From Rhizobium sp. BK650 (lineage in GTDB: Bacteria; Pseudomonadota; Alphaproteobacteria; Rhizobiales; Rhizobiaceae), in contig NZ_JACIBK010000011.1 of the NCBI RefSeq assembly GCF_014195325.1, positions 62,001-126,000 on the forward strand: a stretch of 64,000 nt of DNA, read 5' to 3'. The notes under the pieces are model-generated. The model worked only from the letters and a program-made list of their open reading frames with translations. It did not search any database and was not told the DNA's origin. Below, piece after piece: positions 12,216-15,928 of the stretch (position 1 is its first letter; the number at the start of each line of letters is the position of its first letter). A program made the translations under genes and the position numbers.

Positions 12216-12701
12216 ATGACCATCGCGATCGGTGACAAGCTTCCTGCCGCCACCTTCAAGGAAAAGACCGGCGACGGTCCGGTCGAAACCAGCACCGAGC
12301 AGCTCTTTGCCGGCAGACGCGTCGTGCTCTTCGCCGTACCAGGTGCCTTCACGCCCACCTGTTCGCTGAATCATTTACCGGGCTACCTGGAAAACCGCGA
12401 CGCCATCCTCGCCAAGGGCGTCGACGATATCGCCGTTCTCGCCGTCAACGACTGGCATGTCATGGGCGCCTGGGCGCAATCGTCAGGCGGCCTCGGCAAG
12501 ATTCACTACCTCGCCGACTGGGATGCGAGCTTTACCAAGGCGGTCGGCCTTGAGGCTGATCTTTCCGCCGGCGGTCTTGGGGTCCGCTCGAAGCGCTATT
12601 CCATGCTGGTTGAAGACGGTGTGGTGAAGTCGCTCAATGTCGAGGAATCTCCCGGCCAGGCAACAGTTTCCGGTGCTGCTGCGATGCTCGAACAGCTCTG
12701 A
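12216..12701 (+). CDS. 1-Cys peroxiredoxin (Prx5-like)
   Basis: This 161-residue thiol peroxidase has the active-site motif PGAFTPTCSLNHLPGY with peroxidatic Cys49. I find no other cysteine in the protein, so it is a one-Cys enzyme that needs an external thiol such as glutathione or glutaredoxin. The conserved Arg is in GVRSKRYSMLVEDG. The start at 12216 has GAGGAGG upstream. It follows the DsbD-domain gene by 68 bases and may share its transcript, which would group two redox functions. Confidence 0.92.
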   Translation: MTIAIGDKLPAATFKEKTGDGPVETSTEQLFAGRRVVLFAVPGAFTPTCSLNHLPGYLENRDAILAKGVDDIAVLAVNDWHVMGAWAQSSGGLGKIHYLADWDASFTKAVGLEADLSAGGLGVRSKRYSMLVEDGVVKSLNVEESPGQATVSGAAAMLEQL

Positions 12702-12743
12702 GGCTGAAGCGTATCAGTCGATCAAAAGGCCAGCGGGCGCCTT

Positions 12744-12929
12744 TCAATGCGGAATGTTGAGACACGCGTCGATATCGCGATGGCCTTCGAATATCTTAAC
12801 GACCTCGAAGTCATTGCCGACAGAGCGGAATATGATGACATAGTTTTTGTAGGCAAAGCTACGGATGTCGTCGCCGAGTTCCGGGCGCAGTCGTCCGATG
12901 TGCCCGGGAGAAAGCGAAGTTGCGGCATA
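12744..12929 (-). pseudogene. Truncated parE-like toxin (N-terminal half lost)
   Basis: Directly after the parD stop, and in the same frame, the reverse strand reads about 58 residues ending GHIGRLRPELGDDIRSFAYK and NYVIIFRSVGNDFEVVKIFE then GHRDID. This is the C-terminal half of a ParE toxin (the RPELG-x-RSF and YVIxFR segments). The first 40 or so residues, including the start codon, are missing, so an internal deletion at the parD-parE junction is the simplest explanation. No functional toxin can be made from it. Confidence 0.85.
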
Positions 12930-13199
12930 TCAATGGCCTTCCTTTGCCAATTCGGCCTCTACCTCGTCCAGCGATGCCTGTAGCTCCTCTTCAGTTATCT
13001 CCCCGCCGAGTACGATTGCTTCAGCGATTTCACGGCGCAACGCATTAAGCTTCGCCTCCCGCTCCTCCACCAGTCGCAATCCTTCGCGTACCACTTCGCT
13101 TGCCGAACCATATCGGCCATCCTTGACGGCCTGCTCGACACGTTCATAGCAATCGTCTCCGTTCAATCTCGATAACGAAAAACGCGCAATAATTAGCAT
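12930..13199 (-). CDS. ParD-like antitoxin (partner truncated)
   Basis: This 89-residue protein holds the ParD ribbon-helix-helix pattern, clearest in VEQAVKDGRYGSASEVVREG, and an acidic C-terminal tail for toxin binding (EITEEELQASLDEVEAEL). The first 15 residues fit the family poorly and there is no ribosome site at the ATG, so the 5' end may also be altered. Its toxin partner downstream is reduced to a C-terminal fragment. It lies between the peroxiredoxin gene and the zinc importer. Confidence 0.75.
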   Translation of the reverse strand: MLIIARFSLSRLNGDDCYERVEQAVKDGRYGSASEVVREGLRLVEEREAKLNALRREIAEAIVLGGEITEEELQASLDEVEAELAKEGH

Positions 13200-13237: not shown

Positions 13238-13265
13238 GTTATAACATAACCGTAATGTTATTACG
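13238..13265. promoter_or_regulatory. Tandem Zur-like palindromes before the zinc importer
   Basis: Two adjacent palindromes are visible: GTTAT-AAC-ATAAC at 13238-13250 and CGTAAT-GTT-ATTACG at 13251-13265. Both carry the ATGTTAT/ATAACAT core typical of Zur operators. They end just before the first ORF of the ABC transporter operon, where bound Zur would block transcription under zinc sufficiency. Zur identity is inferred from motif and gene context. Confidence 0.7.
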
Positions 13266-13266
13266 T

Positions 13267-13407
13267 ATGAAGGGAATAAACTTGCCCAACTCAAAACGTT
13301 TCGCCAGCAGTCTCCTCGGGCAATCGGCAGTCCTGCGCGCCTGCGGTGCAACCATTATCGTCTTGCTTCTCTGGTTCGCGATCCATTGGGCGGTCCTGCT
13401 GCCATGA
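13267..13407 (+). CDS. Small membrane protein coupled to the zinc importer
   Basis: This frame encodes up to 46 residues: a basic polar N-terminus and one hydrophobic helix (GATIIVLLLWFAIHWAVLLP) that ends at the stop. The ATG at 13267 touches the operator; a TTG at 13282 has AAGGGA 6 bases upstream and would give 41 residues, which may be the true start. Its stop overlaps the ATG of the ATP-binding gene (ATGA), so translation is probably coupled. I do not recognise a family. It could be a leader peptide or a small transporter subunit. Confidence 0.55.
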   Translation: MKGINLPNSKRFASSLLGQSAVLRACGATIIVLLLWFAIHWAVLLP

Positions 13408-14144
13408 GCGCGTCGGCCATTCGCCTCGACAATCTAACGGTCTCCTATGATCGTCATCCAGCGGTTCATCATCTCTCAGGCACGTTTCAGCCCGGCAGCC
13501 TGACAGCAATTGCCGGGCCGAATGGCGCCGGAAAATCCACGCTGCTGAAAGCGATCATGAGGGAACTGCGTCCAGCGGAGGGGCGGATGGAGCACCGGCT
13601 GCAGCGCACGGATTTCGCCTATCTGCCACAGGCGGCTGACATCAACAGGCGTTTTCCGATCTCGGTGCTGGATACCGTGCTGCTCGGAAGATGGCGCTGG
13701 GCGGGCGCTTTTGGCCGCATCGCAAAGCAAGACGCTGCGCGGGCGGGTGCCGCACTCGCCACCGTTGGGCTGGAGGGTTTCGAAAAGCGCCATATCGGTT
13801 CGCTGTCAGCCGGCCAGTTTCAGCGTGTGCTCTTCGCCCGCCTACTGCTGCAGGACGCTCCCATCATCCTGCTCGACGAACCCTTTACTGCGATCGACGC
13901 CCGAACAACAAGGGACCTGCTCGACATCGTCGCCCGCTGGCATGCTGATGGTCGCACGGTGATTGCCGTGCTGCATGATTTCGAACAGGTGAGGGCGCAT
14001 TTCCCGCAGACCCTGCTGCTCGCCCGCCGGCTGATCGGCTGGGGGCCGACGCAGGAGGTCATGTCGTCAGCCAATCTTCTACAGGCCCGCGCCATGGCGG
14101 AACGGTGGGATGAGGATGCCGAAGCCTGCGAGCCCGCGGCATGA
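13404..14144 (+). CDS. Zinc-type metal ABC transporter, ATP-binding protein (AztA/ZnuC-like)
   Basis: This 246-residue ATPase has Walker A GPNGAGKST, a Q-loop (YLPQAADINRRFP), the signature LSAGQFQRV, Walker B PIILLDEPF and the switch His in VLHDFEQ. The signature reads LSAGQ rather than LSGGQ. It powers the adjacent permease. The start at 13404 overlaps the stop of the preceding small ORF, and the gene overlaps the permease by 4 bases. Zinc rather than manganese is suggested by the Zur-like operators and the binding-protein ligands. Confidence 0.88.
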   Translation: MSASAIRLDNLTVSYDRHPAVHHLSGTFQPGSLTAIAGPNGAGKSTLLKAIMRELRPAEGRMEHRLQRTDFAYLPQAADINRRFPISVLDTVLLGRWRWAGAFGRIAKQDAARAGAALATVGLEGFEKRHIGSLSAGQFQRVLFARLLLQDAPIILLDEPFTAIDARTTRDLLDIVARWHADGRTVIAVLHDFEQVRAHFPQTLLLARRLIGWGPTQEVMSSANLLQARAMAERWDEDAEACEPAA

Positions 14145-15013
14145 CGATCTACGATATTTTCTTCGCCCCCTTCGCCGATTACGGCTTCATGCGCCGCGCG
14201 CTCGTCGCCTGCCTGTGCCTCGGGCTGGGCTCCGGTCCGATCGGCGTCTTCCTCATGCTGCGCCGCATGAGCCTCATGGGAGACGCCATGAGCCATGCTG
14301 TGCTGCCCGGTGCGGCGGTCGGTTATCTCGTCGCCGGCTCGCTGTCACTGACGGCCATGGGCATTGGCGGCCTCGTCGCCGGTCTTTCCGTCGCGCTGCT
14401 GTCGGGTGTCGTCAGCCGCATGACTGTGCTGCAGGAGGATGCGAGCTTTGCGAGCTTCTATCTCGCCTCGCTGGCGCTCGGGGTACTCATCGTCTCGCTG
14501 CGCGGTTCCAACATCGATCTTCTGCACGTGCTCTTCGGCACGATCCTCGCGATCGATGCGCCGGCATTGACGCAGATCGGCGCCATCACCTCGGTCACCC
14601 TGCTGGCGCTGGCGATCATCTATCGGCCGCTGGTCGCCGAATGCTTTGATCCGGGCTTTCTGCGTGCCGTAGGCGGGCGCGGGCCAATCTATCATTTCCT
14701 CTTCCTGCTGTTGGTGGTGCTAAACCTAGTCGCGAGCTTTCAGGCGCTCGGCACGCTGATGGCTGTCGGCCTGATGATGCTGCCGGCAGCGGTCGCCCAA
14801 CTCTGGTCCCGCAGCCTGCCTGTCATGATGGTTGTCGCGGCGACAAGTGCGGCGGTCTCCGGCTATCTCGGCCTCATCGCCTCCTATCACCTCGAACTTG
14901 CCTCTGGCCCGACGATCATCATGACGGTGGCGCTGCTCTATGGCCTCTCGATCTTCTTCGCGCCGTCGGGCCTTGCCCGGCGTCTTTTCCCCCGCCCACA
15001 TCTGAAGGGCTGA
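14141..15013 (+). CDS. Zinc-type metal ABC transporter, permease (AztB/ZnuB-like)
   Basis: This 290-residue protein of the ABC-3 permease family has about eight membrane helices. Family features include MLRRMSLMGDAMSHAVLPG near the N-terminus and ALGTLMAVGLMMLPAAVAQLW, the coupling-helix region. It forms the inner-membrane channel for the metal delivered by the binding protein encoded next. Its start overlaps the ATPase stop (ATGA), and the binding-protein gene follows after 15 bases. Confidence 0.93.
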   Translation: MTIYDIFFAPFADYGFMRRALVACLCLGLGSGPIGVFLMLRRMSLMGDAMSHAVLPGAAVGYLVAGSLSLTAMGIGGLVAGLSVALLSGVVSRMTVLQEDASFASFYLASLALGVLIVSLRGSNIDLLHVLFGTILAIDAPALTQIGAITSVTLLALAIIYRPLVAECFDPGFLRAVGGRGPIYHFLFLLLVVLNLVASFQALGTLMAVGLMMLPAAVAQLWSRSLPVMMVVAATSAAVSGYLGLIASYHLELASGPTIIMTVALLYGLSIFFAPSGLARRLFPRPHLKG

Positions 15014-15028
15014 TTACAGGAGACACCA

Positions 15029-15928
15029 ATGATGTCTAGCAGATTGCTTCTCTCCGCCGCCTTGCCCGTGCTGATGACGCTTTCGGCCGTACCGGCTTCG
15101 GCTGAAACGCTGAAAGTCGTCGCTTCCTTCACCGTGCTTGCCGATGTCGTCCGCCAGGTCGGCGGCGACCACGTCAAAGTCACGAGCCTCGTCGGGTCGA
15201 ACGGCGATCCGCATGAATTCGAACCGTCGCCGGCCGACGCCAAGGCGCTGAACGCCGCAAAAGTCACCTTCGTCAGCGGCGAGGGGCTGGAAGGCTGGAT
15301 GGATCGCCTGATCACCGCCTCCGGCTACAAGGGCAAGCCGGTCACCGTGTCAGAGGGCATCAACACCCGCACAATGGAAGAGGATGGCAAGATCGTCACA
15401 GATCCGCATGTCTGGAATAGCCCTGTCAACGTGAAGGTCTGGGTCGCCAATATCGAGAAGGCGCTGTCGGACGCCGATCCGGCCGATGCCGCCGCCTACA
15501 AGGCCAATGCCGAAAAATATACAAAGAAGCTGGACGAACTGGACGCCTATGCGCATTCCAAATTCGACAAGATCGCGGCTGACCGCCGCAAGGTGCTGAC
15601 CAGCCACGATGCCTTCGGCTATTTCGGCCGCGAATACAATGTGAGCTTCCTGGCCCCGCTTGGCCTCTCGACAGAAAGCGAAGCCTCCGCCGCCGGCGTT
15701 TCTAAGCTAATCGAGCAGATCAAGCGGGAACATGTGAAGACTTACTTCTTCGAGAACTCCAACGATCCTCGCCTCGTCAAGCAGGTCGCCACGGCAACCG
15801 GCGCTGAGCCGGGCGGCGAGCTCTACGTCGAGTCGCTGTCGGACGCGAAAGGCCCGGCACCGACCTATGAGAAGATGTTCCACTACAATGTCGAACAGCT
15901 CTCCGCCGCCATGGCGAAATCGAGCTGA
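15029..15928 (+). CDS. Zinc-type metal ABC transporter, substrate-binding protein (AztC/ZnuA-like)
   Basis: This 299-residue cluster A-I binding protein has a signal peptide cleaved near PASA-ET. Metal ligands are recognisable as His in GDPHEFEPSP, His in DPHVWNSP, His in LTSHDAFGYF and Asp in NSNDPRLVKQ. A third His rather than Glu favours zinc over manganese, and this H-H-H-D set resembles AztC. The His-rich loop of classical ZnuA is absent. AGGAG precedes the ATG. No aztD-type chaperone gene follows; the next gene is convergent. Confidence 0.9.
   Translation: MMSSRLLLSAALPVLMTLSAVPASAETLKVVASFTVLADVVRQVGGDHVKVTSLVGSNGDPHEFEPSPADAKALNAAKVTFVSGEGLEGWMDRLITASGYKGKPVTVSEGINTRTMEEDGKIVTDPHVWNSPVNVKVWVANIEKALSDADPADAAAYKANAEKYTKKLDELDAYAHSKFDKIAADRRKVLTSHDAFGYFGREYNVSFLAPLGLSTESEASAAGVSKLIEQIKREHVKTYFFENSNDPRLVKQVATATGAEPGGELYVESLSDAKGPAPTYEKMFHYNVEQLSAAMAKSS

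Follow-up and report, generated by a model that had tools for sequence, protein, structure and literature searches.

What is encoded by the short open reading frame that separates a pair of palindromes from the genes of a zinc importer in Rhizobium sp. BK650? The window, the whole stretch of 64,000 nucleotides analyzed here, carries this frame as the first of four + strand genes, followed by those of an ATPase, a permease and a zinc-binding protein. A first-pass annotation had noticed two abutting palindromes, then a frame of 41–46 residues with a single helix and a stop overlapping the ATPase start, and these observations were borne out. The palindromes at 13238–13250 and 13252–13264 are perfect inverted repeats with 5-bp arms and a 3-bp centre, the frame most likely encodes 41 amino acids from a TTG codon, and AlphaFold2 predicted one helix (residues 5–39, mean pLDDT 80.4). 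Our data point to a small protein that is likely an overlooked accessory subunit of a ZniCBA-type importer, packed on TM5 of the permease close to the periplasmic face. The features of the locus are as follows.

13238–13250, + strand: Zur-type box 1, GTTATAACATAAC (palindrome; exact pattern matches in the genome)
13252–13264, − strand: Zur-type box 2, GTAATAACATTAC as read on the minus strand (palindrome; pattern matches in the genome; twin boxes of locus L205)
13270–13275, + strand: AAGGGA, likely Shine-Dalgarno sequence of the small gene (sequence)
13282–13407, + strand: gene of the small membrane protein, 41 aa, TTG start, MPNSKRFASSLLGQSAVLRACGATIIVLLLWFAIHWAVLLP (relatives; codon selection; single helix)
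13381–13383, + strand: codon of Ile34 (+3 after Trp31), covarying with permease residue 147 (covariation)
13404–14144, + strand: ABC ATPase, ZniC/AztA-like (Pfam PF00005; NCBIfam AztA 209.7 bits, cut-off 220)
14141–15013, + strand: ABC-3 family permease, ZniB/AztB-like (Pfam PF00950; NCBIfam AztB 264.7 bits, cut-off 280)
14579–14581, + strand: codon of permease Gly147, near the TM5 start (covariation; AlphaFold2 helix)
15029–15928, + strand: zinc-binding protein, ZniA/AztC-like (Pfam PF01297; NCBIfam AztC 274.5 bits, cut-off 350)

The TGA stop of the small gene (13405–13407) overlaps the ATG of the ATPase gene at 13404 (ATGA). The TTG at 13282 was preferred as the start because AAGGGA lies 6 nt upstream of it and because the starts of the nearest relatives are aligned with it or one codon off. 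Two other candidates, ATG 13255 and ATG 13267, were rejected, as neither has a Shine-Dalgarno sequence and both are placed in or against the second palindrome.

The first-pass annotation had proposed that a codon substitution pattern and conservation in related genomes be sought, and both were found, conservation extending far beyond Rhizobiales. Total difference was the criterion for choosing 28 non-overlapping pairs, in which pS was 0.381 and pN 0.086 in frame (pN/pS 0.225), against pN/pS of 1.22 and 2.31 in the wrong frames, and the differences at codon positions 1, 2 and 3 numbered 103, 54 and 237. Since in-frame pN/pS is far below that of the wrong frames, and since nearly all profile matches lie upstream of a zinc permease (see below), the small frame is, on these comparisons, a real protein-coding gene under purifying selection.

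A search with the single sequence among 297 genomes of the family already gave best matches adjoining an ATPase gene, and the frame was present in 30 of 30 family loci around an ATPase of at least 55% identity. Alignment A1 comprises 26 of these 30 loci, the divergent L056, L058, L059 and L060 being excluded and the start of L050 being uncertain. It is ungapped from upstream of the helix up to the second Trp, with Arg19, Trp31 and Trp36 invariant, and shows one gap near the C-terminus in L061. A class-wide profile search of 385 genomes gave a match in 56 at E ≤ 0.01; an AztA homolog was found in 28 of 29 non-own loci retrieved after this search, the remaining one being cut by a contig end. With a wider profile, 398 whole Pseudomonadota genomes yielded 70 matches at E ≤ 0.01, and crossing this list with that of the permeases placed 69 of them 653–958 bp upstream of a same-strand permease match. 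The profile was built from loci preceding an ATPase, yet entire genomes were searched at both class and phylum level; alignment A3 also took in members from the class search, and the two samples overlap in genomes.

Counted from the permease, 69 of 98 matches in the same 398 genomes had the small gene upstream at E ≤ 0.01. The 29 others, which had no profile match at this threshold, included nine of the Azt sister type, eight with distant ATPases (36–40% identity, ZnuC-like by our reading) and no such frame, and eight whose small frame had escaped the genome search at E ≤ 0.01. Of the last eight, L162, L163, L164, L165, L166, L167 and L171 were picked up at E ≤ 0.05 when the profile was run locally, and L168 was recognized by eye only; no small frame was detected by profile in L179, L187, L189 and L190. 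For the 80 best named permease loci, a profile match preceded the ATPase in 78, the exceptions being L235, with little upstream sequence, and L260, with a weak match (E 0.44). These 78 include loci of R. leguminosarum, Pseudomonas, Komagataeibacter, Kushneria and Neisseria polysaccharea, as well as the interrupted L230. The latter, from a Methylophaga MAG, has a stop at the invariant Trp position of its small frame (1728–1850), which may be an assembly error.

The motif R-x11-W was found in 199 of 203 loci with a match (some genomes repeated). The set of 226 loci to which they belong repeats genomes and was drawn from earlier matches, and 203/226 is not a frequency in nature. In the 152 unique cores, Trp occupies +5 in 133 and Ala +6 in 141; as the cores were anchored on R-x11-W, the invariance of Arg and Trp rests on the 199 of 203 loci and on alignments A1–A3. 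No fusion of the helix to the ATPase or the permease was noticed among the matches.

Among annotated plasmid records, that of Skermanella lists the small gene as a hypothetical protein; those of Thioclava, Bartonella and Neorhizobium contain the frame and omit it from the gene table (a table incomplete by design). Scanning 26 members against Pfam and NCBIfam revealed no curated small-subunit family; unrelated families alone were matched, each by one or two members (E ≥ 0.012), and a search of open-access titles and abstract openings gave no description of the small gene. CydX, KdpF, CcmD and AcrZ are small single-helix subunits of about 30–70 aa, partners of membrane complexes; the small protein resembles them in kind only, none of the 26 members matching such a family. 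Homology to solved small subunits was rejected, the only match being a weak one to cytochrome oxidase subunit IIa (E 0.13, 7deg).

The first-pass annotation was right to place a zinc importer downstream, and its Azt assignment has to be changed to the Zni type. The three window proteins stay under the NCBIfam AztA, AztB and AztC equivalog cut-offs given above. They are 80, 91 and 88% identical (ATPase, permease and binding protein) to those of locus L205 of R. leguminosarum Tri-43, which also has the same gene order and twin boxes, and on these identities the importer is of the ZniCBA type. Among named permeases, the one from R. mesosinicum is nearest, at 96% identity. The zinc-binding protein has the motifs DPHEF (His62), DPHVW and SHDAF and no His-rich loop in its translation, read by eye and unaligned. 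No aztD was found directly downstream: between 15929 and 16767, the + strand has no start of a frame exceeding 100 aa.

In the available portions of the two reports, ZniCBA is described as three genes in Klebsiella pneumoniae (PMC10797113) and in R. leguminosarum (PMC12183173), where it is a zinc transport system under Zur control, and these portions do not mention the small gene. Unlike this published three-gene arrangement, L205, L151 and L156 all contain it. We infer that L205 corresponds to zniCBA of strain UPM791. In L151, the small gene comes after mltB (77% DNA identity to E. coli mltB), which is the flank named for Klebsiella zniCBA in the available text (PMC10797113), and the end of the upstream protein is the same in L156. 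The name ZniCBA also denotes an unrelated RND efflux pump of Cupriavidus metallidurans, according to the accessible part of another report (PMC11647595).

The small gene is not a general feature of zinc importers, and the statement of the first-pass annotation that no Znu or Azt operon is known to start in this way is borne out here. It was missing in 39 of 40 AztABCD-type sister-clade control loci, of which 39 of 40 keep the same Zur-type box (≤2 mismatches), and in all four annotated Azt loci (Paracoccus 2, Sinorhizobium 1, Mesorhizobium 1). The latter match all nine controls of the tree better than any other locus compared, and AztD is present in three of the four, the fourth having none in the stretch examined. 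These AztABCD-type loci without the small gene include L298, L299 and L301 and the box-bearing controls L063–L101. In a tree of 78 ATPases, whose root is not fixed and many of whose forks are weak, the nine Azt-type sequences group in a single clade (100/99) amid lineages with the small gene. This nesting suggests that the small gene was lost in the Azt branch. Also, since AztABCD-type importers lack the small protein, it would not be needed by the importer fold as such. The own-genome znu locus has no small gene, the sole profile match of the genome being elsewhere; ZnuABC is a zinc importer as well, but the window proteins do not reach the NCBIfam ZnuA and ZnuB cut-offs (62.2 against 268 and 66 against 284). 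A far relative, locus L274 of N. polysaccharea, has the small gene before an ATPase of 49% identity; its importer may be of the gonococcal MntABC type.

The two palindromes are very likely Zur boxes. Box 2, CGTAATGTTATTACG, spans 13251–13265 with a 13-bp core at 13252–13264, and the box centres are 14 bp apart. Searched with at most one mismatch, GTWATAACATWAC gave exactly two matches in the 64-kb window, both being these boxes (0.02 expected; two in 0 of 100 shuffles). Its exact form occurs three times in the 6.4-Mb genome, namely in the two boxes and once between znuA and znuC (C1:784008, L275). The identification as Zur boxes rests on this placement and on the Zur motif situated 153 bp ahead of zniC in R. 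leguminosarum, according to the available part of that report (PMC12183173). The boxes are located at −166 and −152 relative to the ATPase start in the window, and at −164 and −150 in L205. Of 151 unique loci of the small gene with sufficient sequence upstream, 103 showed at least one box and 56 two or more (≤2 mismatches), compared with 7 and 0 for shuffled upstream sequence; about a third have no such box. The small gene and its downstream neighbours would be under Zur control. The ZnuC encoded beside the third box has a long His-rich C-terminal tail, so that the genome's other zinc importer has a His-rich stretch as well.

The predicted topology is that of a single-pass protein with a cytoplasmic N-terminus and a periplasmic C-terminus, because an excess of Lys and Arg precedes the helix. 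In the 152 cores, the helix segment contains 9 charged residues out of 2888, the N side has 286 Lys + Arg (of which 152 are the anchored Arg) versus 18 Asp + Glu, and the C side 18 versus 17. At least 13 of 133 N-terminal tails, whose starts are uncertain, have five or more His, and most of the 133, including that of the window, have few or none. Such His-rich tails (L164, L165, L167, L271, L272, L150, L155, L160, L105, L107, L060) recur and are most marked in divergent Bradyrhizobium-type members.

Covariation pointed to a partner of the small protein. It was scored over 181 paired sequences (about 71 effective), for all 60378 column pairs within and between the small protein, the permease and the ATPase. 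The best of all pairs joined position +3 after the first Trp of the small protein (Ile34) to residue 147 of the AztB-like permease (z 10.6), the second-best (z 8.4) being two adjacent AztB residues. As judged from the paired residues, these two positions compensate in size: Ile/Gly was found 99 times, Val/Ala 54 and Ala/Val 5, with exceptions to the size rule in 6 Val/Gly and 2 Val/Val out of 181, other combinations being rarer. A tree from which column 147 had been left out showed 25 changes at +3 and 21 at 147, with 16 branches in common, while 2000 simulations of independent change on the same tree gave a mean of 2.8 shared branches and a maximum of 10. In 35 non-overlapping pairs of relatives differing at either site, 26 differed at both, 7 at +3 only and 2 at 147 only; not all are separate events, and our conclusions lean on the tree counts.

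Over the 9725 small-protein pairs tested, +3/147 had a p of 1.4e-17 and the next pair 3.7e-9. Covariation with the ATPase was set aside, as its best pair (p 6.6e-9 among the 9725) was inseparable from long-branch background. The covariation is that of one strong pair; signals linking the small protein to the permease or the ATPase at other positions are weak and possibly phylogenetic noise. In 20 permeases from loci without the small gene, residue 147 was G in 12, A in 4, V in 2, T in 1 and S in 1; as it is small there also, absence of the small protein leaves no clear mark at this site.

Ile34 and Gly147 are both predicted near the periplasmic side. Position +3 lies 15 residues past the cytoplasmic-side Arg of the small protein. 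In the AlphaFold2 model of the permease, residues 140–169 form a helix, taken as TM5, followed by a short helix (171–177) which we take to be the cytoplasmic coupling helix, and most of the conserved positive columns of the permease, with the exceptions of 18, 19 and 121, are consistent with TM5 reaching the cytoplasmic side near Arg162. The covariation suggests a contact between the small protein and the permease, which this geometry would fit.

Purifying selection, the fixed spacing of the invariant residues and the size-compensating covariation with the permease led us to favour an accessory subunit. We hypothesize that the first gene of a Zur-controlled ZniCBA-type operon produces a single-pass, N-in/C-out membrane protein, that its helix packs against the permease close to where TM5 starts on the periplasmic side, and that Ile34 fits against Gly147. 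Such a subunit would probably stabilize the permease, or its periplasmic half, during transport, and a gating role may also be considered. With its stop overlapping the ATPase start, the small protein is likely made in step with the ATPase. The His-rich N-terminal tail of several lineages could bind zinc and modulate uptake, and zinc-dependent control is possible in these lineages. A bolder proposal is a four-part importer in which a detachable helix sits on TM5, the tail (His-rich in several lineages) senses cytosolic zinc and shuts the importer by trans-inhibition, and the AztABCD branch has lost the helix; we regard this version as speculative and rather unlikely.

The first-pass annotation had left the choice between a regulatory leader peptide, a translation coupler and a tiny transporter subunit, and it is the last that selection, spacing and covariation support. 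If the frame only brought ribosomes to the ATPase start or stalled them on zinc, its product having no role, one would understand the stop–start overlap in the window, the finding that 133 of the 152 unique cores have their stop no more than 14 nt from the aligned start of the ATPase, and the rank of the small gene as the first frame past the Zur boxes. However, selection acts on the amino acids and not on the DNA alone, the invariant Arg and Trp stand away from the overlap in an ungapped helix, and a permease residue covaries with the product. Also, 7 of the 152 cores sit 75–210 nt ahead of the ATPase start with the core intact, and no terminator-like hairpin was found on the + strand between 12900 and 13500. 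We consider this explanation quite improbable: the missing hairpin and the conservation within the membrane helix speak against a leader peptide, and coupling is retained only as a side effect fitting the overlap. That the frame is spurious or a non-coding leader RNA could be argued from its shortness and from its absence in the gene tables of three of four annotated records, which are incomplete by design, but the pN/pS and frame tests, the whole-genome specificity and the annotation in Skermanella make the chance negligible, and the non-coding version was rejected on codon statistics.

Two further explanations accept a real protein. It may be a regulatory small membrane protein that acts through its cytoplasmic tail as a zinc-responsive brake when needed, and not a constitutive structural subunit; the same permease contact would serve, and the tails with five or more His, found also in divergent Bradyrhizobium-type members, are in line with this. 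But most tails, that of the window among them, have few or no His, and co-transcription behind Zur boxes would produce the protein when uptake is wanted, and we find a brake unlikely. Type I toxins include single-helix peptides of similar size, and the small protein could be an independent Zur-co-regulated membrane peptide acting elsewhere, toxin-like or as a helper of the binding protein. This appears very improbable to us, given that 69 of 70 matches are tied to a zinc permease and that the protein covaries with AztB 147.

An accessory subunit of the importer would have practical consequences. The new element is a conserved fourth gene in an importer described as three-part in the available text of two ZniCBA papers, which would mean that ZniCBA clones, structures and reconstitutions made from the ATPase onward miss a component. 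Promoter fusions measured back from the ATPase start would cut through the small gene, and the 88-bp fusion of R. leguminosarum would begin inside it. The covariation points to one residue pair, Ile34 and Gly147, which is directly testable, and Zni and Azt offer a clean comparison of importers with and without the helix.

Two observations concern the surroundings and the spread of the locus. L257 and L270, which carry MAG labels of Gemmatimonadetes and Planctomycetota, resemble proteobacterial loci and are possibly misbinned or transferred, the small frame of L270 being close to those of L263 and L264. On the minus strand of the window, a ParD-type antitoxin gene occupies 12930–13199 (Pfam PF03693; within 12640–13199), and after it a ParE-like stretch, recognized by eye, is split over two frames and is perhaps a decayed toxin gene.
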